Numbered from the stretch's first letter, positions 24,903 to 52,118 are shown. The stretch is 64,000 nt of DNA from Singulisphaera sp. GP187 (GCA_943328915.2 CALQBW020000001.1:1-64000), one strand, 5' to 3'. The notes: a model not told the origin generated them from the sequence alone. Numbers and translations: made by a program.

Positions 24903-25302
24903 GCGGCCTCTCGCATTAAATCAAAACAAAATAACGGAACATCCGGATTGTTATTCCCACACTGGATTATCAACAGTAAATATAATCATACCATAGCCAC
25001 CTGTTGCATATCTATTGATTGGATTATGATTCTGTTAAAAACGGGGCACCTAATATTAGGTTGGGTGCAACGGATTGCAATACTTACAAGGATGATACTA
25101 CGGGAGAGGGTGTGAGCAATGACTAGTATGGCTTTTGTCGGTTATTTCCCTATTTTGGGGAATGGTATTCGAATAATATGGGATATAATAAGGCAATGTG
25201 TAGATTTCTCTGTCTGCGAAACAAAAGAAAACTCATTCGCCATTGTCACGAAGCGGTGACGACGTGATGAACTATTGTGTGAACAACGCATAAGGATTAT
25301 TG
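24903..25302. other. Divergent intergenic region
   Basis: 400 AT-rich bases between the epimerase gene and the large membrane protein gene. On the minus strand TGG-TATGAT (24993-24985) could be an extended -10 for the glycan operon; on the plus strand TATAAT (25184-25189) lacks a -35. A short hairpin GTCAC/GTGAC occurs at about 25247-25262. No gene is supported. Confidence 0.4.
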
Positions 25303-28300
25303 ATGAATATGTGGCAGTTTGTGCGTCGACAAAGTTCGCGATTGTTGTTATTGGTTATTGTGTTGATTGGGGCCTATTTTCGACTGAATGGGTTGCATAG
25401 CTGGGATGAGCCGTCGTTTCGGTTGCATCCTGACGAACGATTTTTGACGGAAGTTGCCAGCCAAATTCGCTTGCCCAATTCATTCCATCAATTTATCGAT
25501 TCGAGCAATACGCCACTCAATCCGCGTAATGGGAACTATAAATTTTTTGTGTATGGAATGTTGCCGCATACGATAACGCGGTTTGTGGCAGTGGCAATGA
25601 CATCTCCTGATCGGATTGCGCCGACATTGACGTCCGCTGACAAAGACGGCAACAATGTCAATCCCGAATACACGTTGTCGAAAGCGATTCCCGACAAAAT
25701 TCGTAAACTCATTAATCCTGATGGCGTTGATCATACGGCTGACATTCACAAAGTGGGCCGGGGATTATCGGCATTTTTTGATTTGCTGTCGATTTTATTA
25801 ATATTTGTAATTGCGCGACGGTTGTACGGTGAAAAAGTCGCGTTGCTGGCTGCATTGATGACCGCAGGTACGGCGTTTTTGATTCAACAAGCACACTTTT
25901 TTACCGTTGATTCCACAAGTACCACATTTATTTTGCTCACGATTTATTTTGCGATACGAATCATCCAACGCGGTGTGTGGTTTGACTATATAGGCGCGGC
26001 ACTGAGTGTCGGTGCGGCAATTGCCTGTCGGATTACTTTGGCCACGGTAGCACTTGCAGTATTGGTTGCGGTGGCAACACGATTGTATCGGGCATATCAA
26101 AACGACAATCGGCGCGCTATCATTCGTGAAGTTGTCATGGTGGTGATTTGGGGTTTATTGACCCTGTGTGCAGCCCGCACACTTGGCCCCGACATGTTTG
26201 CCGGTACGATGCCGGGGAGCGAAGCGCGCCCGATTTTGAGTGACAAATTAGGAAATATCGGACTCAGCCTCGACAATCTCTTCCAAGGCAAGGGGTATTT
26301 CGATATCCGTCCTGATGACCGATTTTTGCAGAGCATGTCTGATATCAGTCGCTTTGCGTCTGGCGAAGTCGATTGGCCACCGACCCAGCAATGGGCAGCG
26401 CGGCCTCGCTATGTGTTTGCCTTGTCCAATATGGTCTTGGCAGGGATGGGTGCCCCGCTGGGGATTGCCGCATGGCTCGGGTTTGCATTGGCCGGATGGT
26501 ATTTGTTACGCCGGAGAATGATTGCACATCTTATCCCGTGGACGTGGGTCTTGTTTTATTTTGGGTGGCAAGGTGGCTTGTTTTTGATGTCGATGCGATA
26601 CTACCTCCCGGTGTATGGCATGTTGACGATTTTTGCAGCATGGCTCATTGTCCACTTGGCGAGCTATCGCCGTGTGGTGTTTGACAAAGTCATGCACTGG
26701 ATGTGGCAACCAGGTGATCCGGAGCTCCACCGCCCACGTGCATTGGCGACGGCACGGGGTATTGCCTTTATGACGGTCGTGCCGGCGTTAGTGGTGGTGA
26801 CGGGGGCATTGGCATGGGGGTATGCCTTTTCGCGGATTTATACCGAAGAACATACACGTGTCGCGGCATCGCGTTGGATTTATGCCAATATTCCTACTGG
26901 CTCGGTGATTAGTTCAGAATCATGGGATGACGGCTTGCCGTTGGGACTTGATGGCCGTGGTGCCGATCAATTCCCTGGCGAGGCCTTCCCTGTTTATGCC
27001 GAAGAAGAGCCTAATAAATATTTCGGGGATGGCACTGCCGAAAATAAAGGCATGCTCAAACAAATCGATAATGTTGATTACATCATCATGAGCAGCAATC
27101 GTATCTACGACACGGCAGGGCGTTTGGTGATGCGCTATCCGGCACTGATTAATTATTACAAAGCGCTGTTTGATGGCTCACTTGGATTTGATTTGGTAGC
27201 AGAATACCGTTCATCTCCCCGGTTGTTCGGCATAGAATTCCCCACTGCCACGTGGGCCGAAGAAGCGTTTAGTGTTTATGACCATCCGCGGGTATTGATT
27301 TTCAAAAAAACGGACCGCTATAATAGCGACAAAATGAAGTCTTTGATTTTGCACGGTGTGGTGTTTGAAGAAGTCTATAAAATGCCGACCATTCGTGCCA
27401 GCAAAGCGATGACGGCATTGCACTTTACCGATTTGCAATGGCCAACATATCGTAATGCAGCCTCGTGGAACGAAATATTTAGTACATTTACTACCACCAC
27501 TGTCCCATGGCTGTGGTGGTGGTTAGCTATTGAAATATTGGGTTTGGCAGCGTTTGTGTTGTTTCGGCGTGCCTTGGACTGGTTGCCAGATGCCGGCTTT
27601 GCTATCGCCAAAACGCTCGGATTATTAATCATCGCATGGGTGATTTGGTTTGCCGGTACCGTGCATGCCTTGAATTATGGGCGGGTCGGGGTATGGGTAT
27701 TGGCACTGTTGTGGGTGTGTGCCGCCGTGGTAAGTTGGTGGCGCAACCGTGCTGAATGGCGGCGCTGGTGGACGCAACAGCGTTGGTTGATTGTCACAAC
27801 GCAAATGATTTTCATGCTGGCATATATAGCGTTTGTGTTTGTACGGGCTAGTAATCCCGATTTATGGCATCCTGGCCGTGGTGGTGAAAAACCGATGGAC
27901 CTGGCGTTTTTGACGGCAGTGGTGCGGAGCCCTTCATTCCCGCCGTATGATCCATGGTTTGCCGGTGGGATGCTCAACTACTACTATTTTGGCTTTGTGA
28001 TGCTCGGTGTATTGGTGCATATGACCGGTATCGCCCCATCGACGGCTTACAATCTGGCGGTGCCGACAATTTTTGCATTGACAGCGGTAGGTGCGTGGGG
28101 CGTCGCCTTGGCAATGCAAGGAAGTTTTCGGACAATCTATGCCGGAGCATGGCGATGGTGGTTCCAAGCGTTGCCAGTAAGTGAGCGCCGTAAATTGGCT
28201 GGTGCATTGTTGGCCGCGTTGTTTACCGTAGTTGCAGGTAATTGGTCGAATGCACTCTGGATGTTACCCGGTACTGGCAGTAACCCTGCCGAGTCGTGCG

Positions 28301-31300
28301 ACAAAGGAACGTCTTATGCCGCCCAACAAATCTGTGGGGGTCGTGAAGAATGGGCGTTCTGGGATGCGACCCGGGTCGTTTCAATCAAAACCGGCGATGG
28401 GGTGATTAACGAATTCCCCTTCTTTACTTTTTTGTTTGCCGACCTGCATGCCCACATGATTGGCCTGCCGTTGTTGGTGGCGGCGTTAGGTGTGATGATG
28501 GCGTTAGTGCGGCGACGCACGCGCGTACGACAATTGTGGCCGCGGTGGCGCCAACGCGTGATTCCGGTGTTGTTGCTGGGGTTGATAAGCGGTGTTTCAT
28601 ATGCTACCAATACGTGGGATTACCCCACGATTATTGGTATGGCAATTGTGACATTGCTCTTGGTGGCATGGCGTGATGAACAACGGCGTGCTAATTTACT
28701 GAATCACTTGATCGGACTTGGTGTCGCCGTTGCGTTGCTGATGATTTCGTCCAAAATCGTCAATTGGCCATTTAGTCAATGGTTTGCTAGTGACTATACC
28801 GGCTTTGAATTGTGGACTGGACCACGGACGCCCACTGCGTTGTTGATTGAACTATCGGGCATGTGGATGTATGCGGCGATTAGTGCCGGTACATTGTTGT
28901 TGATTCGTTTGCGCTGGCTTTCGGTGCCTTATGCGCTGGGGAGTGCGGCCGTAGTAGTGGGTGCGCTGGCATTCGGTGTCTTGCGAGCGGTGCCAGCATT
29001 GTATGTTGAAGTCGGCGCAATGTTGTTGATAATCAGTTTAATTATCGCCGTTATGACCCGGGCCGGGGTATTTACCATGCCGGTGCTTTGGCAAAAGCGA
29101 TCACGAGTGTTACAGCTCGAATTACCGTTTTTTGATGAAATTGAACGTCGGTTAGCATCGCGATTACCGACAATTTCAATCGAAACGATTTTTACAATCG
29201 TGATGGTAATGGCTATGTTTGGTATCTCGGCATTGACCGAAGTCCTTGTCGCCAAAGGTGATATTGGGCGTATGAATAGCGTCTTTAAATTTGGAATGCA
29301 GGTTTGGGTGTTTGGGGCGATTAGTAGTGCGGTGATTTTGGCGTGGGTCTGGCAATTGTTGCAAAAATATCTCGCCACGTTCAAATTGGGTTGGCAAGTG
29401 GTGACAACAGTGTTAGTGGCTGCTGCATTTGTCTACCCCGCCACTGCCACGCCGGCGCGTTTGGGTGATCGTTATGACAAAACTATCCCGTTGACGCTGA
29501 ACGGTGAAGCCTATATGAGTTCGCCCAATTCTACATGGAACGAAAACGGCACGAATTTTGATTTTGGTGAAGATGTGGCCGGGATTAATTGGATACGCAA
29601 TAACGTGCGGGGAATTCCGATTTTGCTCGAAGCACATGCTGAGGCGTATCGTTGGGATGCGCGGATTGCAAATTACACCGGATTACCGACGCTGATTGGC
29701 TGGCCGTGGCACGAAACCCAACAGCGAAGTGTGACCGACGTCGGTGCTGTGCTGGGCGCGCGTCAAGCTGCAGTGCAACGCTGGTATACCGATGCGGATG
29801 CCGCGAAAACGTATGCGGAAATCCAGAATTACGGGGTGGAATACGTTTATGTTGGCCGGATGGAAAAAGCGCTGTATGGGCCACAAACTGGGACGGCGTT
29901 TAATCAATTAGCCAAAGAAGGCAAAATCACCGAAGCATTCCGGGTGGGCGAGACAGTCATCTATCAGTTACCAGTAGCTGATCACGCACCAGGAGTGCTC
30001 AAAACTGGTACATTGGCTCGTTTTGCGCCGACACCATTGGCACAACAGTCAATGTTGACCGTTGAGAATGCGCAGTTACCGGTAGTGACGAGCCCCGGCT
30101 GGAATCCAGTACAAAACACGGTTATTATCGTGCTACTGTGGTTGTTGGCTTGGTATATGATTGCGTTCCTCGGGTTGTTGCCGGCGTTGTGGTTGGGTGA
30201 TACGCAATGGGTCTGGGCACGACTCATTGGACTTTTGGTGCTCGGTTATGCTTTGTGGTTGCCAGTGAGTGCCCGCCTTATGTACAACTCCACGACTGGG
30301 TTGGTAGTGGCAATCATCTTGGCATTGAAGTTCAGCCTATGGGCGTTGTTCCGGATTGGAATGCGTCAAAAATCGAATGATGCGCTGGTCGCTGTATGGT
30401 TTGATTGGGGCGACGTGCTCCCTGCGCTTCAACGTGGGTGCCGACATGTGCTGGCTACATTGCGCGCGCAAACGCGAACTATTGCCATATTTGAAGCGAT
30501 TTTCACTGGGAGCTTTTTGGTATTGGTGGCGATTCGCATGATCAACCCTGATTTATGGAATCCAGTGTGGGGAGGCGAAAAACCGTTTGAATTTGGCCTG
30601 TTAAATGCGGTTTTGCGCAGCCCTGTCATGCCACCATATTCGCCATTTTTTAGTGGTGGAACGGTAAATTATTATTATTACGGGTATGTGCTGTTGGCGT
30701 TGCCGATTCGATTGACTGGGATTGCACCCGCGATTGGGTATAACCTTGTGCTTGCGTCATTATTTGCCCTGCTTGTGAGTGGGGTGGCGGCGCTGGTCTG
30801 GCAAGTCACGCAACGCCGCTGGGCCACTGCCGTCGCCGTGCTGGCGATGGGGGTGATCGGCAATCCTGCGAGTGCCGTCGAAATCGGTTGGTCACGGGGA
30901 ATAAAACCGGTCATATTGGCCTTCCAGCAGCATGGGTTGGCTGGTATGTATGGTGCACTTGATGATTGGTTTATTGGTTCAACGCGTGTCATTCCCAACA
31001 CCATCAACGAATACCCAGCGTGGAGTTTTGTCTTTGGCGATTTGCATGCACATGTTATTGCATTGCCGTTTGCAATCTTTTTGTTGGCATTGGCGTGGGA
31101 TTCTCTGAGTAAAAAACGCCTGTCCGGGGCTTGGTGGATACTTGCACCAATGGTTATTGGAACGTTGGCGATCACCAATTCTTGGGATACGCCGACGGCA
31201 ATATTGATTTTGTGTGGGGTATTGGTACGGCGAGCCTGGACATCAGCACGGCCATGGTTGGCGGTGTGGGCGGTGGTCCAAGTCGCGGTGATTGCCGCAG

Positions 31301-33018
31301 TGGCCTACATCGGTTATTTGCCATTTTTTCAACAATATGTGCCACAAATTGGTGGGATCGCGCAAGTAACGACTCCCTCACCTTGGCTGCCATGGTTGGC
31401 GATGTGGGGTTTGTTTGTCGTACCGGCAATTGTTGCCGCGGTAGTGATCGCCTGGCAGAAGCGGATAATGCGCGTTATTGTTACCGTGGTGTTATTGCTT
31501 TTGGCGATCGTTGGAGTAACTGCACCGTTATGGGCGGCTTGGGCACCACATTTGGTGATGTGGTTCGGTGACCCGCGCATTTGGTTGGCGATATTTATGC
31601 TCTTGTTGGTCCCGTTTTTGGTCAAGCGCCAACCAGACCACCAATTATGGTTTGGGTTATGGTTGATTTTTGTGGCGTGGGCGGTAACGTTTGTGGTTGA
31701 AATTGTCTACATTCGCGACCACATGGATGGTGGCGAATGGTATCGAATGAATACGGTGTTTAAATTTGGTGTGCAAAGCTGGTTGTTGCTATCCATAGGG
31801 ATTGCGACGATATTGCCGACTTTGGTAGATCGCATCAGGCAAATGCACCGAGCAATTTTACCGGTCGCTGCGGTCGCAATGATTGTGCCCGTAATCATGG
31901 GGGCGAGCTTCCCATTGATTGGGATACCGAATCGTGTGGCATATCGAATAAATGCAGTCCAGGCACCGACGCTTGATGGCCTTGCATTTATGGCAAACGG
32001 TACGTACAATACGGCCGATCGTGATATCCCGTTTTCCTCTGATTATAATGCCATCCAATGGTTGAATAGTCATGTCAAAGGGCTACCGGTGATAATGCAA
32101 TCGAGCATTGAATTCTATCGTGGATATGGTGTGCGAATAGCAGCGAACACGGGATTCCCCACTGTGGTTAGTCCGCTCCACGAAAGTGAACAGCGCAACG
32201 GTGACCTAGTGGGTGCCCGCGATGCAGACGTAATTGATTTTTATCGTTCGACAGATATCGCACAAAAGTCCAAAATTTTATCTCGGTATCGCGTGGGCTA
32301 TGTGATTGTTGGTCCTATAGAACGGGCAGCATATGGCAAAGAAGGAACAGATGCCATCGCCAAAATCGGTTCGCTTCGTTCTGTTTATAATTCTGGTGAG
32401 ACGAGCATCTATCAAGTGTCTCCAAATATTGTCCAAATTCCACCACAAGGTTCGGTTAGTGGGGATCAAGCAGTTGATACTGTTTCGTTCCCGAGTGAAC
32501 CCGAACCCCCAGCGGAGGATTTGGGTGAACTTGAAAAGAAATTCGAGGCTGATCCTGCGAATATAGATACGATGATGGCATTGGTTGATGGGTATCGACG
32601 GCAGCAACGCTTTGAAGAAGCAGTAGCTGTTGTGGCTCGTACGCAACCAGCTCATCCCGGTGATATCATGATTTTGCATATGTTGGGTGATACTGCTATG
32701 GAAGCCAAGCTGTATGATCAAGCAATTCAGGCATATCGTGATGCGCTCAAGGCCGATGACACCGGTGGGAATGCCAATAAACTTATCACGGGATTAATCA
32801 ATACAAATCGTATTGATGATGCGTTGATAGAAGTGAATGCGGCAATTGTGAAATACCCTGATTTCTTTGATTTTTATATTACGCGTGCCAAGATTAAAGA
32901 AATTACTGGTGATTTTGAGGATGCCAAAGCCGATTACCAGGCTTACCTTGACAAAGCTCCTGTGGATTCTGGGTTGCGTAGTGAAGCCCAAGATGGCTTG
33001 AATCGTTTGTCCAAGTAA
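25303..33018 (+). CDS. Giant fused membrane protein: GT-C-like module, two DUF2298 modules, C-terminal TPR
   Basis: About 2,571 residues from ATG 25303 (AAGGA six bases upstream). N-terminal part (about 1-780): a multi-TM GT39/PMT-like module with an acidic HPDERF in the first loop. Then two repeats of the 'YYY' family: module 1 has NPDLW (about 851), NYYYFG (892), DLHAH (1047) and RMNSVFKF (1323); module 2 has NPDLW (1748), NYYYYG (1790), DLHAH (1913) and RMNTVFKF (2148). Each ends in a soluble region with YVYVG/YVIVG and an E-x2-x-YG pattern. The last 165 residues are TPR helices (KLYDQAIQAYRDALKADD). By fold these are probably polyprenyl-phosphate-sugar-dependent glycosyltransferases; the activity is unproven. 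A second DUF2298 gene follows. Confidence 0.9.
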   Translation: MNMWQFVRRQSSRLLLLVIVLIGAYFRLNGLHSWDEPSFRLHPDERFLTEVASQIRLPNSFHQFIDSSNTPLNPRNGNYKFFVYGMLPHTITRFVAVAMTSPDRIAPTLTSADKDGNNVNPEYTLSKAIPDKIRKLINPDGVDHTADIHKVGRGLSAFFDLLSILLIFVIARRLYGEKVALLAALMTAGTAFLIQQAHFFTVDSTSTTFILLTIYFAIRIIQRGVWFDYIGAALSVGAAIACRITLATVALAVLVAVATRLYRAYQNDNRRAIIREVVMVVIWGLLTLCAARTLGPDMFAGTMPGSEARPILSDKLGNIGLSLDNLFQGKGYFDIRPDDRFLQSMSDISRFASGEVDWPPTQQWAARPRYVFALSNMVLAGMGAPLGIAAWLGFALAGWYLLRRRMIAHLIPWTWVLFYFGWQGGLFLMSMRYYLPVYGMLTIFAAWLIVHLASYRRVVFDKVMHWMWQPGDPELHRPRALATARGIAFMTVVPALVVVTGALAWGYAFSRIYTEEHTRVAASRWIYANIPTGSVISSESWDDGLPLGLDGRGADQFPGEAFPVYAEEEPNKYFGDGTAENKGMLKQIDNVDYIIMSSNRIYDTAGRLVMRYPALINYYKALFDGSLGFDLVAEYRSSPRLFGIEFPTATWAEEAFSVYDHPRVLIFKKTDRYNSDKMKSLILHGVVFEEVYKMPTIRASKAMTALHFTDLQWPTYRNAASWNEIFSTFTTTTVPWLWWWLAIEILGLAAFVLFRRALDWLPDAGFAIAKTLGLLIIAWVIWFAGTVHALNYGRVGVWVLALLWVCAAVVSWWRNRAEWRRWWTQQRWLIVTTQMIFMLAYIAFVFVRASNPDLWHPGRGGEKPMDLAFLTAVVRSPSFPPYDPWFAGGMLNYYYFGFVMLGVLVHMTGIAPSTAYNLAVPTIFALTAVGAWGVALAMQGSFRTIYAGAWRWWFQALPVSERRKLAGALLAALFTVVAGNWSNALWMLPGTGSNPAESCDKGTSYAAQQICGGREEWAFWDATRVVSIKTGDGVINEFPFFTFLFADLHAHMIGLPLLVAALGVMMALVRRRTRVRQLWPRWRQRVIPVLLLGLISGVSYATNTWDYPTIIGMAIVTLLLVAWRDEQRRANLLNHLIGLGVAVALLMISSKIVNWPFSQWFASDYTGFELWTGPRTPTALLIELSGMWMYAAISAGTLLLIRLRWLSVPYALGSAAVVVGALAFGVLRAVPALYVEVGAMLLIISLIIAVMTRAGVFTMPVLWQKRSRVLQLELPFFDEIERRLASRLPTISIETIFTIVMVMAMFGISALTEVLVAKGDIGRMNSVFKFGMQVWVFGAISSAVILAWVWQLLQKYLATFKLGWQVVTTVLVAAAFVYPATATPARLGDRYDKTIPLTLNGEAYMSSPNSTWNENGTNFDFGEDVAGINWIRNNVRGIPILLEAHAEAYRWDARIANYTGLPTLIGWPWHETQQRSVTDVGAVLGARQAAVQRWYTDADAAKTYAEIQNYGVEYVYVGRMEKALYGPQTGTAFNQLAKEGKITEAFRVGETVIYQLPVADHAPGVLKTGTLARFAPTPLAQQSMLTVENAQLPVVTSPGWNPVQNTVIIVLLWLLAWYMIAFLGLLPALWLGDTQWVWARLIGLLVLGYALWLPVSARLMYNSTTGLVVAIILALKFSLWALFRIGMRQKSNDALVAVWFDWGDVLPALQRGCRHVLATLRAQTRTIAIFEAIFTGSFLVLVAIRMINPDLWNPVWGGEKPFEFGLLNAVLRSPVMPPYSPFFSGGTVNYYYYGYVLLALPIRLTGIAPAIGYNLVLASLFALLVSGVAALVWQVTQRRWATAVAVLAMGVIGNPASAVEIGWSRGIKPVILAFQQHGLAGMYGALDDWFIGSTRVIPNTINEYPAWSFVFGDLHAHVIALPFAIFLLALAWDSLSKKRLSGAWWILAPMVIGTLAITNSWDTPTAILILCGVLVRRAWTSARPWLAVWAVVQVAVIAAVAYIGYLPFFQQYVPQIGGIAQVTTPSPWLPWLAMWGLFVVPAIVAAVVIAWQKRIMRVIVTVVLLLLAIVGVTAPLWAAWAPHLVMWFGDPRIWLAIFMLLLVPFLVKRQPDHQLWFGLWLIFVAWAVTFVVEIVYIRDHMDGGEWYRMNTVFKFGVQSWLLLSIGIATILPTLVDRIRQMHRAILPVAAVAMIVPVIMGASFPLIGIPNRVAYRINAVQAPTLDGLAFMANGTYNTADRDIPFSSDYNAIQWLNSHVKGLPVIMQSSIEFYRGYGVRIAANTGFPTVVSPLHESEQRNGDLVGARDADVIDFYRSTDIAQKSKILSRYRVGYVIVGPIERAAYGKEGTDAIAKIGSLRSVYNSGETSIYQVSPNIVQIPPQGSVSGDQAVDTVSFPSEPEPPAEDLGELEKKFEADPANIDTMMALVDGYRRQQRFEEAVAVVARTQPAHPGDIMILHMLGDTAMEAKLYDQAIQAYRDALKADDTGGNANKLITGLINTNRIDDALIEVNAAIVKYPDFFDFYITRAKIKEITGDFEDAKADYQAYLDKAPVDSGLRSEAQDGLNRLSK

Positions 33019-33024
33019 TCCCAG

Positions 33025-33060
33025 CCCAGCTGGTGCGGGAACGCCGTACCAGCTGGGTTT
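33025..33060 (+). terminator. Hairpin between the two DUF2298 genes
   Basis: CCCAGCTGGT (33025-33034) pairs with ACCAGCTGGG (33048-33057), followed by only three T. It may be a weak terminator or attenuator between the genes. Confidence 0.55.
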
Positions 33061-33081
33061 CCAACATATGAAGGAATTAAT

Positions 33082-35406
33082 ATGTTTAGTGCAGTACTAC
33101 TCCATTGGTTAGCCACATGGGTGTGTGTCGCGGTGGGGTTGCCGTGGGTTAAGTATTTGTTTGGTGCCATGCCGACTGCCATGGTTGGTATGGCGCGTCC
33201 GCTCGGTTTTGTGCTTGTCGGGGTAGGGGTGTGGAATTGTGCCATGATTGGCTTAGTGCCATTTAATGCGGGTAGCGTGGTGTTTGTTGCTTTGGTGATT
33301 GGTGTTATTGGGTGGCGACTTGCGGGGGGAATTGACAAAGAATGGGTACGCGCACACTGGCGCACCTGGGTCCTCAGTGAAATATTCTTTCTAATTGCCA
33401 TGGCACTGGTGGTGTTCATACGGAGTCGCAACGCTGATCCTTGGGGTACCGAACGGCCCATGGATTATGCGTTTTTTAATAGTGTGATGCATAGCCCGAG
33501 TTTTCCACCATTGGATCCTTGGATGTCCGGCTTCCCAATCAATTATTATTATGCCGGCTATATATTGGCGGCGATACCCGCTTTGCTTACCGCAGCAGAT
33601 CCGGTGGTTTCGTACAATTTAGCCTTGGCCACGACAGCCGGAATGAGCGCCGCTGCCGTGGTAAGCATTGTCATTGCCGTTATCACTCAATGGCGTCCGA
33701 GTGGTCGCGCCCTGGGACGTGGTGAAGCGCCCCTGATGGCGACTTTGGCGTTTGCTGCCCTTCTATTAGTGGGGAATCTAGGCGGTTTTTTGCAAATAGT
33801 TACTGGGGTGCCCGAAGTACTTGCCCTCGAATCTACTGATATAAACCACGCAATCCAAAATGGGCTCGGCAATCGTGGTACGCTCCAATTAGCGAAACCG
33901 TTTAAAGGCTGGGATTTCGATGGGAATACCAGTTTCACGCCACGTGACACATGGGCTGACTTTAATTGGTGGAATCCATCGCGATCAGTATGGGATACTA
34001 CTCCTGTTGAAGATGGTAGTACTGAGCGACGCTACGCGATTACTGAATTTCCGTTTTTTTCATTTTGGTTAGGTGACATGCATCCGCATGTGATGGCATT
34101 ACCGTTTGTACTGTTGTTGATGGCATTGGCAATGCGACGTGCAAACGGGAAAACTCCTGATTTGTTTTTACCAGCACTGATGTTGGGATTGTTATATCCG
34201 TTAAATAGTTGGGATTATCCCACGTACATGGTGTTGTATATCGGTGCAATCATCTGGTATGGCGTACGTAATGAAGTGTCTTGGAAGGATATCGGCAGGG
34301 AAATTGGTATTGTTGCGATAGCTTCATATGCCTGGTATCTTCCATTTCATGTTTCATTTCATTCATTAGTTGGGGCTGCTGCACCGCTGGTAAATGTGCC
34401 GGTAATCGGGGCGTTATCACGCTATTTTGGTGCAGCACCAGCACGTACTGAATTCCATGGCTTATTTATCATGTTTGGACTATTCTTTGTGCCGATATTG
34501 ATTGCCATGGCGCGTATGGTCACAACGAAACAAGAACGCATCTTGTTTGCAACAACGATAGTAGTGGGTGTTATAGGTGTATTTACCGGTTTTGCGAGTA
34601 TAGCTGCGGTACCACTTGCTGTTTTGGCGTTGTACATGATATTTATGCGCAGCGATATTCCACCAATGATGGTGATTTGGTTAGGGATGACGGCGATTGC
34701 CGCATTGCTTTGTTGTGCGGTAGATGTGGTTTATGTGCGCGATGTGTTTAGTTCACGCATGAATACCGTATTTAAGTTTTATTATCAAGTATGGACAATT
34801 TGGAGTTTGAGCAGTGTGGTGGCTGGGTGGTATGTCTGGCAGGTAGGCCAGCGGTGGTGGCGATTAGGATTATGTGTGGTAACCATTCCGATATTGATTG
34901 CTGCGCTATTCTACCCTGCGGTAACGGTCGGCAAAGCATTGTTTGTCGACCAAACAGGTGATTTGGCCGGGCATACGCCGCGAGACAACCCAGAAGGTGG
35001 TCATGATTCGATTGTCTGGTTACGGAACAACGCTCCTGCTGGTTCAGTCATAGTCGAAGCCGTCGGGGGTCAATATGATACCGAAGGGAAAGGATTTGGC
35101 GGCGTTTCTGCGTCTACTGGATTACCAGCGGTGATGGGCTGGCCTGGCCACGAAGATCAGTGGCGTGGTGGTCATCTCGAAGCAAAAAACCAAATCGGTG
35201 CACGTGACGAAGATGTGCGCACCATCTATAGTAGTGGCGAAGAGGCAGTGGTACAACCATTGCTCGCAAAATATCACGTGCGCTATGTGTATGTGGGGCC
35301 AACGGAACGCGATGTCTATGGTGAAGGTGGTTTAGTCCTATTTGATTCGATAGCGACTGTGGCATTCCAGCAAGGGCAAATTACTATTTTCGAAATTAAA
35401 AAATAA
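33082..35406 (+). CDS. DUF2298 ('YYY') polytopic membrane protein
   Basis: 774 residues, single module of the same family as the two inside the preceding gene. Corresponding motifs are NADPWGTERPMD (about 117), NYYYAG (about 154), a variant DMHPH (332-336, against DLHAH), RMNTVFKF (559) and YVYVGPTERDVYG (about 735). It has many membrane segments and a soluble C-terminus. The ATG has GAAGGA upstream. It probably acts with the fused protein on the same pathway, such as lipid-linked sugar transfer outside the membrane; this is inference. Confidence 0.9.
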   Translation: MFSAVLLHWLATWVCVAVGLPWVKYLFGAMPTAMVGMARPLGFVLVGVGVWNCAMIGLVPFNAGSVVFVALVIGVIGWRLAGGIDKEWVRAHWRTWVLSEIFFLIAMALVVFIRSRNADPWGTERPMDYAFFNSVMHSPSFPPLDPWMSGFPINYYYAGYILAAIPALLTAADPVVSYNLALATTAGMSAAAVVSIVIAVITQWRPSGRALGRGEAPLMATLAFAALLLVGNLGGFLQIVTGVPEVLALESTDINHAIQNGLGNRGTLQLAKPFKGWDFDGNTSFTPRDTWADFNWWNPSRSVWDTTPVEDGSTERRYAITEFPFFSFWLGDMHPHVMALPFVLLLMALAMRRANGKTPDLFLPALMLGLLYPLNSWDYPTYMVLYIGAIIWYGVRNEVSWKDIGREIGIVAIASYAWYLPFHVSFHSLVGAAAPLVNVPVIGALSRYFGAAPARTEFHGLFIMFGLFFVPILIAMARMVTTKQERILFATTIVVGVIGVFTGFASIAAVPLAVLALYMIFMRSDIPPMMVIWLGMTAIAALLCCAVDVVYVRDVFSSRMNTVFKFYYQVWTIWSLSSVVAGWYVWQVGQRWWRLGLCVVTIPILIAALFYPAVTVGKALFVDQTGDLAGHTPRDNPEGGHDSIVWLRNNAPAGSVIVEAVGGQYDTEGKGFGGVSASTGLPAVMGWPGHEDQWRGGHLEAKNQIGARDEDVRTIYSSGEEAVVQPLLAKYHVRYVYVGPTERDVYGEGGLVLFDSIATVAFQQGQITIFEIKK

Positions 35407-43677: not shown

Positions 43678-45006
43678 TCATAAATTTGTCAAAGTTGTCG
43701 TTAAGATACTATCGTCACTCGGTGCCACCGCCCGTAGATCAAGCCAGAGAGCACCATCTTGGATACGCCCAATGATGGGAATCACAGCGTGGCGAAGTTG
43801 GCGGGCGAGGGCATCTGGATGTGTGTGAGGGCAGACAAGCGCCCACGACGGGAGTGTTTGGCCCGGTAATGATCCTCCGCCGATGGTGCTGGTGCTGGCC
43901 TGCACGTGCCAGGGCGCGGGGAGTGATTGGACAATCGTTGTGGCACGTTGATGGAGTTCATCGCTACTTCGATGAATCATTTGCCATATTGGAATTTCAG
44001 CGGTCGCACGTTGCATTACATAACTCTGCAATGTTGCTTGCATTGCCGCTATTGCAAGTTTATCAAGTCGGACAGCCCGCAGCAACGGGTGCTTCGCGAG
44101 CAACCCGATTGGGGCTTGTTTGCCAATGATGATGCCAGCTTGTGGACCGCCAATCAACTTATCACCGCTGAAACAAACGATATCAGCGCCGGCTTTGATG
44201 CGATCAGGGATGAGCGGTTCGGCAGCCAGCCCATAGGTGCTGACATCGATGAATGAACCACTGCCGAGATTATCGACGAGTAAAATCCCCCGCTGGTGGG
44301 CTAAATCAGCGAGTTCACTCAGCTCAGCGTGGTGGACGAACCCTTGCATTTGGAAATTGCTGGTATGCACTTGCAAAATCATGGCGGTGCGCTCGGTGAT
44401 GGCTTCGGCATAATCGCGTACATACGTCCGATTCGTTGTCCCTACTTCGACCAACGTTGCTCCGCTTTGGCGTAGGACGTCGGGGATGCGAAATCCGCCG
44501 CCGATTTCGACGGCTTGGCCACGCGACACGATGACTTCCCGACCGACGGCCAAGCCGGCAAGGATAAGCAGGATCGCGGCGGCGTTGTTGTTCACGGCGA
44601 TGGCTGCTTCGGCGCCGCTGAGGTGGCGTAGGATCCCCGCGAGGTGGACGCCCCGATCACCGCGACCACCTTCGCCGAGGTTGTATTCGATATTGACCGG
44701 ACCTGCTCCGTGCTGCAATGCGCGTCGGGCTGATTGACTGAGGGGAGCCCGACCGAGGTTGGTCTGTAATAACACCCCACTGGCATTGATGACAGGTCGT
44801 AGGGATGGGGCTGCAAATTGGGTAATTTCGTCTTGCAAAAGCGCCACAATGGTTTCAAAAGTGGGGACTTCACCGTTGCGCAGTCGCAGTTTTTCTAATA
44901 ACATCCGAGCCAAAGCCACCACCGTTGGACGCGGCAATGGGGAGTCAACAGCTACTGCATTCACCAAGCGGTCTATTGATGGTAACTGGCGTTTGAGATT
45001 GGTCAT
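43678..45006 (-). CDS. selA: L-seryl-tRNA(Sec) selenium transferase
   Basis: 442 residues. SelA converts Ser-tRNA(Sec) to Sec-tRNA(Sec) with selenophosphate in a PLP-dependent reaction. The N-terminal tRNA-binding helices (PSIDRLVNAV), the core INASGVLLQTNLGRAPLS, NNNAAAILL and the PLP lysine K283 in FSGDKLIGGPQAG are all present; E. coli SelA is 463 residues. Its ATG overlaps the TGA of the upstream CHAT-like gene (ATGA). selB, selC and selD are not in the window. Confidence 0.95.
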   Translation of the reverse strand: MTNLKRQLPSIDRLVNAVAVDSPLPRPTVVALARMLLEKLRLRNGEVPTFETIVALLQDEITQFAAPSLRPVINASGVLLQTNLGRAPLSQSARRALQHGAGPVNIEYNLGEGGRGDRGVHLAGILRHLSGAEAAIAVNNNAAAILLILAGLAVGREVIVSRGQAVEIGGGFRIPDVLRQSGATLVEVGTTNRTYVRDYAEAITERTAMILQVHTSNFQMQGFVHHAELSELADLAHQRGILLVDNLGSGSFIDVSTYGLAAEPLIPDRIKAGADIVCFSGDKLIGGPQAGIIIGKQAPIGLLAKHPLLRAVRLDKLAIAAMQATLQSYVMQRATAEIPIWQMIHRSSDELHQRATTIVQSLPAPWHVQASTSTIGGGSLPGQTLPSWALVCPHTHPDALARQLRHAVIPIIGRIQDGALWLDLRAVAPSDDSILTTTLTNL

Positions 45007-46190
45007 GGCTTGGGGGTACTCATAGGAATAGGAAAGGATGGGAGAAGCGGTATTGCAAATGAATTATTATTGAGCATGCGCCCTAAAAGGAGCGCTCCGC
45101 TGATAGCTACGGCAATACCAATCACGGCTAACGTGGCCCGCACCCAACTCCAAGAATTGTGCGGCACATCGAAAACAAATAAGCGTTCGGTGCCGGGCAC
45201 AATTCTGAGTTGTGCAAGCCCCCAGTTGACATCTCGGCGGCCACTGGTCAAGGCGCGTCGGCCACGAGTGACGGCGAGATCGAGCGGAATATCTTCGATG
45301 ATGGCGTTGTAGCATGTCGCTGCAAAGCGCACAATTGTATCTGGACGACTCACCCCACTGAAAGTAATCGCAGCGTTGATTGTTTTGCTCATTAATAGGG
45401 CCGCAAAAATCTGTGGCATCGCGAGTATTTGCGGTTCACCGCTACCCGCCATAGTGACACTTATCAAGCCGATATCGGGGAATTGGGCAAGGAGATCGGT
45501 AAGTTCAAACACATCGATTTCACTGCCGAAGACAATCCGAATCAAATTATCTGCATTGAGGAGTACATCCCCCACAAAATGAACGACATGGTAGATTTTT
45601 TGGCTGAGTGCATGTTCAATGTCAACGATGGAATGCACTTCGACAATATTTACGCTAATGCGTTTGGCATTAATTTCGCTTTGGAGCATCGTATGAATCA
45701 AACTGAATTGGGAAGTTTGTTCGGGGTGGACCAACAGCAATATGCATAAAGGACCATCGACCAAAATCGGTGGGGCGGGTTCGTTGATCGAAGATAAGCG
45801 CACGACAGCGTAATCATCGTTGATTGCTGGTGCCCATTCACGCGTGCCAGGTACCATCGCCCATTCCCATGGCAAGGCGGCTAATTCGGGGACGGCAATT
45901 TGGATTTGGATTTGCAGGCGACCATTGCTGTTTTGGGCGGTGCGTGCATGGGCAATCAACATGTCGCGAACGACTTCTGGAAAGATGACTGCGCCGAGTT
46001 CGTGGCCTAATTCGCCTGGATCACCTAATAATTCGGTGTGGGTCGGTTGCAGCAGTCGCCCCCCTTTTTGTACCAAATATTCGGGGATATCAATGGGGAT
46101 AGCGATATTTTGCGATGCCGTAAAGACATACAACACAAAGTCGCCTTGTTCATTGGCACCAATCGAAATGTGAAACGGGGTGATCTGCAT
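45003..46190 (-). CDS. Membrane-anchored, apparently inactive CHAT-domain protein
   Basis: 395 residues from ATG 46190, three bases after the preceding glycosyltransferase stop. The layout is CHAT-like: LPWEWAM (106-112), VHFVGD (203-208) where active CHAT proteases have H-x-x-GHG, and VTMAGSG (245-251) where they have the catalytic Cys region. Both catalytic positions are replaced, so it is probably a pseudo-protease. GRRALTSGRRDVNWGLAQL ends the domain, and a single membrane segment (about 348-372) with a Pro/Ser tail follows. Role unknown; it is translationally coupled to selA. Confidence 0.72.
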   Translation of the reverse strand: MQITPFHISIGANEQGDFVLYVFTASQNIAIPIDIPEYLVQKGGRLLQPTHTELLGDPGELGHELGAVIFPEVVRDMLIAHARTAQNSNGRLQIQIQIAVPELAALPWEWAMVPGTREWAPAINDDYAVVRLSSINEPAPPILVDGPLCILLLVHPEQTSQFSLIHTMLQSEINAKRISVNIVEVHSIVDIEHALSQKIYHVVHFVGDVLLNADNLIRIVFGSEIDVFELTDLLAQFPDIGLISVTMAGSGEPQILAMPQIFAALLMSKTINAAITFSGVSRPDTIVRFAATCYNAIIEDIPLDLAVTRGRRALTSGRRDVNWGLAQLRIVPGTERLFVFDVPHNSWSWVRATLAVIGIAVAISGALLLGRMLNNNSFAIPLLPSFPIPMSTPKP

Positions 46191-46192
46191 AT

Positions 46193-47431
46193 TTACTGTT
46201 TCTGTAATGCGGTGCGGTAGGCTTCCATGGTGCGTTGGGCGACGACAGGCCAATCGAATTGGCTCCGCACAATCGCGGCACTTCGAGCTCCCCAAGCGCT
46301 CCAATGCGCGCGCGCTAGGAGCATCCGTTGTAACCCCACATAGAGTGCTTGCTTATTATTGGGTGGGACTAGTATACCATTCACGCCATCGAATACTTTG
46401 TCAGGAATCCCCCCGGCGGCAGTAGCAAGCACAGGGCGCTGGTGAATCATTGCTTCGAGGGTGACAAGTGATGAGCCTTCGTACAGTGTAGGATGGACAA
46501 AAAAATCACAGGCTGCATATAAATTTTGGAGTTCGGAATCATTCATTCGGCCAGCAAACGTGACATGGGCCGCGATTCCGAGTTGGTGAATTTGGGCAGC
46601 CAGGGCGGGACGTTCCTTGCCTTCGCCAACCAGCACCCAGCGCCAGCTTGCAGGTAATTCGCCTCGCTGGTGCGCCAATGCAAGGGCATCGGCAAATAGA
46701 TGATACCCTTTGTTGCGTTCGAGCCGGCTGACGCTCAGCATCAACAATTCATCGCCAGATGCATAGCGCTGGCGGAGCTCATGGACGAGCGTTGCGTGGA
46801 TAGGCGCAAGATTTTCGGCAGTATCAATAGCACTCGGTATCACTACGACACGCTGCGGATCAACCCCGAGGTAATGGGGTAAATCTGGCGCGGTACATGC
46901 GTCGGTGGCAATGGTGTAGTCAGCCAATCGATGCCCGGTGGTATACATCCAGCGAAACGGCACATAGGCCAACCATTTCCGCCAATCAGGGGTGCGATAT
47001 TCCTCGAGCCCATGTGGGTTCGCAAAAAAAGGCACGGTGCGGAGGTGAGGATCGTTGCGACGCAACCACCCATATCCAAACGCACACAACCCTTGGCTAT
47101 GCACCACATCGAACCGACCTGCACGCACCGCAGTCGCCACTTGGTGGCCGAGTTCCCATGTGTAGCGCGGGTAATTTATTTGCCGTCCAACGATTGAATT
47201 GGGGCGTAGGTGAGGCGATGTATAGTCGTACCGCAAGGTCTCTACCTGCATATGGGGAGTAAGTTGGGCAAGTTGACTGTGGTCGGGTGGCGTTTGCACA
47301 TACAAGGTGACGTCGGCACCAAGCTTGGCCAAATAGGTGGTCAAATGGTAGACATGGCGTTCGATGCCACCATACCCGTGGAGTGGCCACACCACGCGGG
47401 CGAGCATTGCGACGCGGATCGGCGCCGTCAC
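46193..47431 (-). CDS. Glycosyltransferase, GT4 family
   Basis: 412 residues, GTG start at 47431 overlapping the upstream glycosyltransferase stop (GTGA). GT-B fold: GGIERHVYHLTTYLAKLGADV in the N-terminal domain (in part), SVSRLERNKGYHLFADAL and E-x7-E in EGSSLVTLEAM in the donor domain. It probably builds a surface glycan together with the next upstream enzyme. The CHAT-like gene follows after two bases. Confidence 0.92.
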   Translation of the reverse strand: MTAPIRVAMLARVVWPLHGYGGIERHVYHLTTYLAKLGADVTLYVQTPPDHSQLAQLTPHMQVETLRYDYTSPHLRPNSIVGRQINYPRYTWELGHQVATAVRAGRFDVVHSQGLCAFGYGWLRRNDPHLRTVPFFANPHGLEEYRTPDWRKWLAYVPFRWMYTTGHRLADYTIATDACTAPDLPHYLGVDPQRVVVIPSAIDTAENLAPIHATLVHELRQRYASGDELLMLSVSRLERNKGYHLFADALALAHQRGELPASWRWVLVGEGKERPALAAQIHQLGIAAHVTFAGRMNDSELQNLYAACDFFVHPTLYEGSSLVTLEAMIHQRPVLATAAGGIPDKVFDGVNGILVPPNNKQALYVGLQRMLLARAHWSAWGARSAAIVRSQFDWPVVAQRTMEAYRTALQKQ

Positions 47432-50831: not shown

Positions 50832-52118
50832 ATGCGCATATTTTTGATTGGAATGCTCCATGTATTACTCACATATCATCCGCAGGTCCAAAATGCATTT
50901 TCTTTGTCTGCACCCAAAACCCGTACGAATACAAAAACAGTAGCTGCATCGAAAACCCGTACGTATAACAGATCATTGACTACAACCAAAACCCGTACGT
51001 ATACCAGATCATTGACTACAACCAAAACCCGTACGAATACCAAATCATTGACTGCAACCAAAACCCGTACGAATACCAAATCATTGACTGCAACCAAAAC
51101 ACGCACCGCGACTAACACTTCGTCGCCAACTCCCATGCGCACACGGTCATTCACAAAAACAATTACTGCTGCTGCGACGTCCACATTCACCGCGACCAGT
51201 ACGCCCACCGCGACCAGTACGCCCACGGCAACCAGTACACCCACCGCGACCAGTACGCCCACCGCGACCAGTACGCCCACCGCGACCAGTACGCCCACCG
51301 CGACGATTCGGTCGGTGGTATTGGCGGCAGGTTCATTCCATTCGCTGGCCATCCGGAATGGAGTTTTACAGGGCTGGGGAAGTAATGCGTATGCACAAAT
51401 TACTTTACCTACGGCCACTACTGCGCCGATTGTGGCAATTGCCGCTGCAGACACACATTCGCTCGCACTATTAAGTGACGGCACTGTTGTGGGTTGGGGA
51501 AGAAATAACAATGACCAAATTACTATTCAAGAGGATGCGATTAATTTTATTGATATTTGTGCGGGAAAAGATCACACCTTGGGGGTTACACGAAGTGGGT
51601 CAGTGCTCGGCTGGGGGTTCAACGGCTATGACCAACTGACCATTCCCAGCGATATCGGGTTGGTGCAGGCGGTCGCCGCCGGCTTCAATCATTCGTTGGC
51701 ATTACAGCCCGATGGCATGGTGGTGGGGTGGGGCGATGATACGTTCGGGCAAAGTAGCATTCCTGCTGGGTTGAGTAACGTGATTGCGATTGCCGCCGGC
51801 GGGAATTTTTCGCTGGCACTCAAGAACGATGGCACGGTAGTGGCCTGGGGCGCCAATAATGCCGGGCAGGCCACGGTGCCAGGAACATTAACCAATGTCC
51901 GTGCCATCGCCGCAGGTGATAGCCATGGAATGGCACTCAAAAATGATGGCAGCGTGGTTGCCTGGGGGAGCAATACCTCTGGTCAGCGCACCGTCCCCGC
52001 CACTGCAGTCAATGTGGTGGCGATTGCCGCCGGAGGACGACATTCACTGGCGATGAAAAACGATGGCACCGTGTTGGCGTGGGGGCGGAGCAACGAAGGC
52101 CAGATCACCGTGCCCTGA
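50832..52118 (+). CDS. Secreted RCC1-repeat seven-bladed propeller with Thr-rich repeat stalk
   Basis: 428 residues. A signal-peptide-like hydrophobic start (1-about 23) is followed by about six 12-residue KTRT...SLT repeats (29-100), six TSTPTA repeats (about 120-158), then seven RCC1-type blades (about 160-428) of the form AIAAGxxHSLALKNDGTVVAWG. Seven blades are enough for a closed propeller. The Thr/Pro/Ser stalk is typical of extracellular, possibly glycosylated linkers. The RCC1 domain probably binds a surface or extracellular partner; ligand unknown. Convergent with moaC. Confidence 0.88.
   Translation: MRIFLIGMLHVLLTYHPQVQNAFSLSAPKTRTNTKTVAASKTRTYNRSLTTTKTRTYTRSLTTTKTRTNTKSLTATKTRTNTKSLTATKTRTATNTSSPTPMRTRSFTKTITAAATSTFTATSTPTATSTPTATSTPTATSTPTATSTPTATSTPTATIRSVVLAAGSFHSLAIRNGVLQGWGSNAYAQITLPTATTAPIVAIAAADTHSLALLSDGTVVGWGRNNNDQITIQEDAINFIDICAGKDHTLGVTRSGSVLGWGFNGYDQLTIPSDIGLVQAVAAGFNHSLALQPDGMVVGWGDDTFGQSSIPAGLSNVIAIAAGGNFSLALKNDGTVVAWGANNAGQATVPGTLTNVRAIAAGDSHGMALKNDGSVVAWGSNTSGQRTVPATAVNVVAIAAGGRHSLAMKNDGTVLAWGRSNEGQITVP
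50916..51131 (+). repeat. 36-bp coding tandem repeat
   Basis: About six in-frame copies of a 36-base unit encoding KTRTxTxSLTxT in the stalk of the RCC1 protein; neighbouring units differ by few bases. Confidence 0.85.
51190..51306 (+). repeat. 18-bp coding tandem repeat
   Basis: About 6.5 nearly identical copies of an 18-base unit encoding TSTPTA. Such an array can change copy number by slippage without breaking the frame. Confidence 0.9.

Follow-up and report, generated by a model that had tools for sequence, protein, structure and literature searches.

DUF2298 modules of a Chloroflexales-type locus as probable outer-face GT-C sugar transferases

Introduction

Two adjacent genes in a 64,000-nucleotide stretch of DNA from Singulisphaera sp. 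GP187 (GCA_943328915.2 CALQBW020000001.1:1-64000; hereafter the window) together encode four membrane modules, and the question raised by this locus (positions 25303-35406) is what these modules do. Three of them are clear, full-length members of TIGR03662/PF10060 (DUF2298), which is catalogued as a family without an assigned function. An original prediction, made from the sequence alone, considered the biochemical role of DUF2298 not to be established, in agreement with the literature that we found: no paper naming PF10060 or TIGR03662 was retrieved, and DUF2298 was mentioned by only two papers, in passing. A class with an additional N-terminal region, two copies and tetratricopeptide repeats (TPRs) is, presumably, already described in the TIGRFAM annotation. 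Here we add evidence on fold, site and context, namely a predicted fold, a corrected catalytic candidate, a linkage to a likely donor synthase in archaea, a history of the paralogues and lineages with candidate pseudo-enzymes. We conclude that DUF2298 is probably a GT-C transferase of the oligosaccharyltransferase (OST)/DPY19/AftA structural group, which would pass sugars from a polyprenyl-phosphate carrier to an envelope acceptor at the outer side of the cytoplasmic membrane, the modules of this locus possibly acting as a relay.

Results

Two genes, four modules

The original prediction had described a 2,571-residue fusion of a GT-C-like N-terminal module (N-module), two DUF2298 modules (A and B) and TPRs, followed by a gene encoding a third DUF2298 module (C). 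Its open reading frames and lengths were right, the length being counted from the ATG at 25303; an alternative TTG start at 25300 would give 2,572 residues (Table 1). Each DUF2298 module was matched by PF10060 and, far over the curated cut-off, by the longer TIGR03662 (Chlor_Arch_YYY). The DUF2298 signal in both genes is far above chance, and no copy beyond these three modules was found in the genome. The host of both genes is a Chloroflexales-type bacterium. As no hydrophobic stretch lies between the soluble domain of module B and the TPRs, the tail should be extracytoplasmic, judging from its sequence.

The motifs proposed as common to the three copies (NPDLW-type, NYYY, D-[LM]-H-x-H and RMN[ST]VFKF) were present in each, except that the free copy has NADPW rather than NPDLW; YYYxG reads NYYYFG, NYYYYG and NYYYAG. 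The accompanying claim of matching spacings held locally, with 29 residues from [KR]P to NYYY and 11 from E-[FY]-P to D-x-H in all three modules, but not from NYYY to D-x-H (155, 124 and 178 residues in A, B and C) or from D-x-H to RMN (276, 235 and 227).

Table 1. Features of the two-gene locus, with positions counted from the first nucleotide of the window
Feature	Position	Strand	Residues and motifs	PF10060 match (E-value)	TIGR03662 match
Fusion gene	25303..33018	+	2,571 residues; N-terminal GT-C module, DUF2298 modules A and B, TPR tail		
N-terminal GT-C module	25303..27500	+	residues 1 to ~733; HPDERF 42, MRYYLP 431; PMT_2/STT3-like		
Module A (DUF2298/TIGR03662)	27505..29970	+	EKPMD 862, NYYY 892, NEFP 1036, DLHAH 1047, RMNSVFKF 1323, WPWHE 1467	27628-29310 (2e-106)	27505-29970
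Module B (DUF2298/TIGR03662)	30130..32418	+	EKPFE 1759, NYYY 1789, NEYP 1902, DLHAH 1913, RMNTVFKF 2148	30241-31791 (9e-103)	30130-32418
TPR tail	32512..33015	+	TPRs at residues ~2404-2555; predicted extracytoplasmic		
Free-standing DUF2298 gene	33082..35406	+	774 residues; 63 bp downstream of the fusion gene		
Module C (free protein)	33082..35406	+	ERPMD 124, NYYY 154, TEFP 321, DMHPH 332, RMNTVFKF 559, WPGHE 687	33214-34803 (1e-96)	33088-35397

Predicted fold and distant relatives

An AlphaFold2 model of the free protein (module C) was obtained from a 76-sequence alignment, modules A and B being assigned the fold by homology to C. The model had a predicted local distance difference test score (pLDDT) of 90.3 and a predicted template modelling score of 0.94, and a Foldseek search of the PDB returned GT-C enzymes (DPY19, AftA, AglB, PglB and AftD) as all of its 11 best matches, each with a probability of at least 0.97, while the first unrelated match reached only 0.14. 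The C-terminal domain of the model matched the isolated C-terminal globular domain of AglB-S2 (3vu0, probability 1.00). The GT-C fold originally predicted for these modules was thus recovered by both the model and the structural search.

A sequence search of the PDB, with the free protein or with its 76-sequence profile, gave nothing credible. Profile comparison related DUF2298 to the N-module (E 5e-6), pairing RMNTVFKFYY with MRYYLP and aligning the soluble domains as well, and to AglB, both in a 70-column stretch containing the NSWD segment (E 4e-8) and between the two C-terminal domains (E 2e-5). When hhalign was limited to the first half of DUF2298, no significant alignment with AglB or the N-module was obtained, and none was seen for the external-loop motifs.

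The N-module, searched alone, scored 54.2 bits against Pfam PMT_2 (cut-off 26.1), a match that the scan of the full-length protein had not listed, and its profile matched PMT1, STT3 and ArnT sequences. Its model (pLDDT 86.9) matched AglB, STT3, ArnT, ALG12, ALG9 and PMT, and profile comparison with archaeal AglB gave a probability of 98 and an E-value of 3e-14 over 481 columns. Its earlier description as PMT/GT39-like is sound at the superfamily level (PMT_2), but the kinship to STT3/AglB oligosaccharyltransferases is at least equally strong in structure and profile.

Conserved residues

Conservation was assessed over 158 full-length modules from 113 loci: 15 A modules (first in a double fusion), 16 B modules (second), 57 single modules fused to an N-module and 70 free-standing modules. 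The Glu before [KR]P (E124 in the numbering of the free protein) was kept in 157, the lone exception being a degenerate module, and Y155-Y157, E322, D332, H334, H336, N375, R559, N561, K565, H690, R708 and E742 were also near-invariant. In terms of motifs, the near-invariant set comprises the Glu before [KR]P, YYY, E-[FY]-P, D-x-H-x-H and R-x-N-xxx-K. Position 128, the last of PM[DE], carries Asn in place of Asp or Glu in two A modules, one of them from Herpetosiphon (L046, KPMN), and in the window's module B the motif reads KPFE, which leaves the Glu preceding [KR]P as the invariant acid. The suggestion that the acidic [KR]PM[DE] loop could hold the catalytic base was accordingly right as to a conserved acid in the loop, but wrong as to the residue named. 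An acidic residue in the first external loop, by which GT-C enzymes are recognised, is provided in DUF2298 by this Glu. The acidic and His motifs are conserved across Chloroflexota, as the original prediction implied, and the conservation extends to archaea, whose free-standing DUF2298 proteins retain E-K-F-M-D, YYYxG, D-L-H-x-H, R[MF]NTVFK and GWxxHE.

In Archaeoglobus fulgidus AglB, the metal ligands are Asp47, Asp161 and His163, the last two lying in the D-H-H motif of the second external loop (PMC8342417). The D-x-H-x-H of DUF2298 may be equivalent to this D-x-H metal site, with which it agrees in pattern and in its place in the motif order.

Motifs lost together in two lineages

In two fusions (L044:2595-9929 and L150:6992-13990, the latter from genome G150), the E-K-P-M-D, YYY, NEFP, DLHAH, RMN and HE motifs have all disappeared from the middle module together, while the motifs of the N-module and module B are kept and the reading frame is open through the degenerate module A. 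The two proteins share 61% identity in the N-module, 60% in B and 42% in A (overall ~52%), and where the motifs are intact, conservation of A equals that of N and B (for example 54/54/51%). These middle modules are candidate pseudo-enzymes, seemingly dead but retained. The joint loss fits with the motifs forming one active site, and the retention of a dead module in frame would fit a structural role. The free-standing DUF2298 gene of G150 (L150:4167-6101) also looks broken, similarity ending at about residue 488 with the remainder in a different frame, and the break is either a sequencing error or a pseudogene.

Genes adjoining DUF2298

All six archaeal DUF2298 genes examined (L172-L177) adjoin, at 10-530 bp and in the same orientation, an AglD-like gene with a PF03706/TIGR00374 flippase-like domain. 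In four of the six, a clear GT2 domain is encoded in the same frame, and in a fifth a marginal one; the sixth matches a dolichyl-phosphate hexose transferase profile (1e-7). By its domains, this neighbour is likely to be a maker of dolichyl-phosphate hexose, which is suggestive of a polyprenyl-linked sugar donor for DUF2298. In Haloferax, AglD makes dolichyl-phosphate mannose, which is followed by AglR-dependent delivery and transfer by AglS (PMC3871713).

Among 58 Chloroflexota loci, the commonest neighbours were PMT_2-type GT-C genes, with families present in 31 and 22 loci, and PF03706 proteins lay beside DUF2298 in 7. Adjoining GT-C genes at L099:15057-17075, L154:6002-7678 and L155:14339-16006 matched TIGR03663 (Agl23) below its cut-off; the N-module, the fusion and the free protein of the window gave no match to this family.

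The locus itself is flanked on one side by genes for an NAD-dependent epimerase, GT4, a methyltransferase, a short-chain dehydrogenase/reductase (SDR) and Gfo/Idh, and on the other by ATP-binding cassette (ABC) and MatE transporters. The genome of the window has GtrA and eleven PMT_2 matches, and no STT3 (PF02516) match was found in it. Elsewhere in the window, a 433-residue open reading frame without a Pfam match (45003-46304, minus strand) is flanked by a SelA-like gene and by a gene for GT4, and an RCC1-repeat (beta-propeller) protein (50832-52118, plus strand) is encoded just upstream of an MraW/PBP/Mur cell-wall cluster.

Distribution and history of the fusions

DUF2298 was present in 104 of the 151 Chloroflexota genomes sampled and in some archaea, with only two weak matches in plasmid records. 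Across the wider phylum the usual form is an N-module with one DUF2298 module (~1,450-1,800 residues), often with a free-standing copy nearby; the double fusion with TPRs (2,330-2,860 residues) occurs mainly within the order of the window. In a FastTree phylogeny the A modules formed one clade (support 1.0) among the N-fused singles, and the B modules another (1.0), nearer the free-standing proteins. Since A and B sit in separate clades, the likeliest origin of module B is capture of a different paralogue rather than copying of A, and an origin of the pair by duplication inside the fusion was rejected on the same tree.

Discussion

The proposal that DUF2298 is a lipid-sugar transferase is based on what was observed of the module architecture and homology, the predicted fold, the conserved motifs and their joint loss, and the gene context in archaea, from which we infer catalysis, donor, acceptor, relay and the role of the TPRs. 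Each module would take a sugar from a polyprenyl-phosphate carrier, most likely a monophosphate, and pass it to an envelope acceptor at the membrane's outer face. The first external loop begins with the invariant Glu of E-[KR]-P, which may serve as a base or acidic centre; in the second, D-x-H-x-H would bind a divalent metal or the carrier phosphate, and the R-x-N-xxx-K segment could hold the carrier phosphate, while the small AglB-like extracytoplasmic domain with G-W-x-x-H-E might help to shape the acceptor side. The three DUF2298 modules and the OST/PMT-like N-module, encoded by two adjacent genes, would probably act as a relay that assembles a single glycan, while the extracytoplasmic TPR tail would hold an acceptor or partner.

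Several observations weigh against this proposal. The global TM-scores are low (0.26-0.43 by query, with a best of 0.51 by target, for AftA), so that the structural match supports the GT-C fold class and not a close relative. Helix count alone does not fix the topology of the second half, where a continuous 35-residue helix (362-396) obscures the parity, and the D-x-H-x-H motifs of DUF2298 and AglB are not directly paired in any profile alignment. Gene context points clearly to a donor synthase in archaea but not at the window's own locus. Furthermore, Agl23, whose relatives recur beside DUF2298, has flippase activity, the purified Haloarcula hispanica protein supporting translocation of M5GN2-PP-Dol (PMC11182771). 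The role proposed for archaeal Agl23, that of a GT-C-fold flippase or scramblase acting on lipid-linked sugars, could apply to the DUF2298 modules in place of transfer, and the matches of adjoining GT-C genes to TIGR03663 lend this some weight, although they fall under the cut-off of that family. We consider this improbable, since DUF2298 keeps the full acidic, His and Arg/Lys set, like a transferase site, and the archaeal neighbour already has a flippase-like domain.

Transfer of an entire glycan en bloc from polyprenyl-(di)phosphate to protein, with DUF2298 replacing STT3, would accord with the structural kinship to AglB/PglB, the AglB-like C-terminal domain and the lack of an STT3 match in the genome. 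However, DUF2298 lacks the OST signature WWDYG, STT3 is present alongside DUF2298 in some archaea (for example in genomes G151 and G152), and the archaeal neighbour resembles dolichyl-phosphate hexose synthases, all of which makes an oligosaccharyltransferase role unlikely. That the modules are mostly non-catalytic scaffold or regulatory copies around one active N-module appears very improbable: there are inactive GT-C proteins, PIG-U among them (PMC7801869), and a dead middle module is kept in frame in two diverged lineages, so that the fusion tolerates the loss of one module, but every other module, the window's three among them, keeps the motifs almost unchanged across very wide divergence, and archaea have DUF2298 free-standing.

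The transferase interpretation can be extended, although we put this forward tentatively and with rather more doubt than belief. DUF2298 might constitute a new GT-C family with a site of its own, comprising the E-[KR]-P Glu and a D-x-H-x-H metal site, the four modules on two polypeptides in Chloroflexales forming a processive outer-face assembly line with a TPR acceptor dock, and some lineages carrying a retained pseudo-enzyme module. The functional case for this widespread family is stronger than before. With the residues named here and the donor-synthase neighbour, the prediction of an outer-face lipid-sugar transferase can be put to the test in archaea. The fusions are also unusual in that a single chain bears several GT-C modules.

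Comparison with known systems

DUF2298 resembles AglB, STT3 and PglB (GT66) in its GT-C fold, a first external loop that is acidic, a D-x-H motif preceding a later membrane helix, a conserved basic motif towards the end of the membrane domain and an extracytoplasmic C-terminal domain. In contrast to these enzymes, it matches PF10060 and not PF02516, it has extra N-terminal helices and the YYYxG and E-[KR]-P signatures, and WWDYG, present in the AglB set, is absent from the window translations. The DPY19 C-mannosyltransferases and the arabinosyltransferase AftA gave the best Foldseek matches of the DUF2298 model, with 11-12% identity over the structural alignment. As in the O-mannosyltransferases TMTC1-4, a GT-C membrane part is followed by lumenal, that is extracytoplasmic, TPRs (PMC7801869). 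The TMTC proteins, however, belong to a different GT-C family and have one module per protein, versus three and a partner gene here, and a Pfam scan of the window proteins detected TPRs but no DUF1736, the TMTC loop. Finally, the archaeal pairing of DUF2298 with an AglD-like GT2 and flippase-domain gene is reminiscent of the Haloferax AglD-AglR-AglS relay of donor synthase, flippase and outer glycosyltransferase (PMC3871713), a likeness that does not imply identity with AglS.

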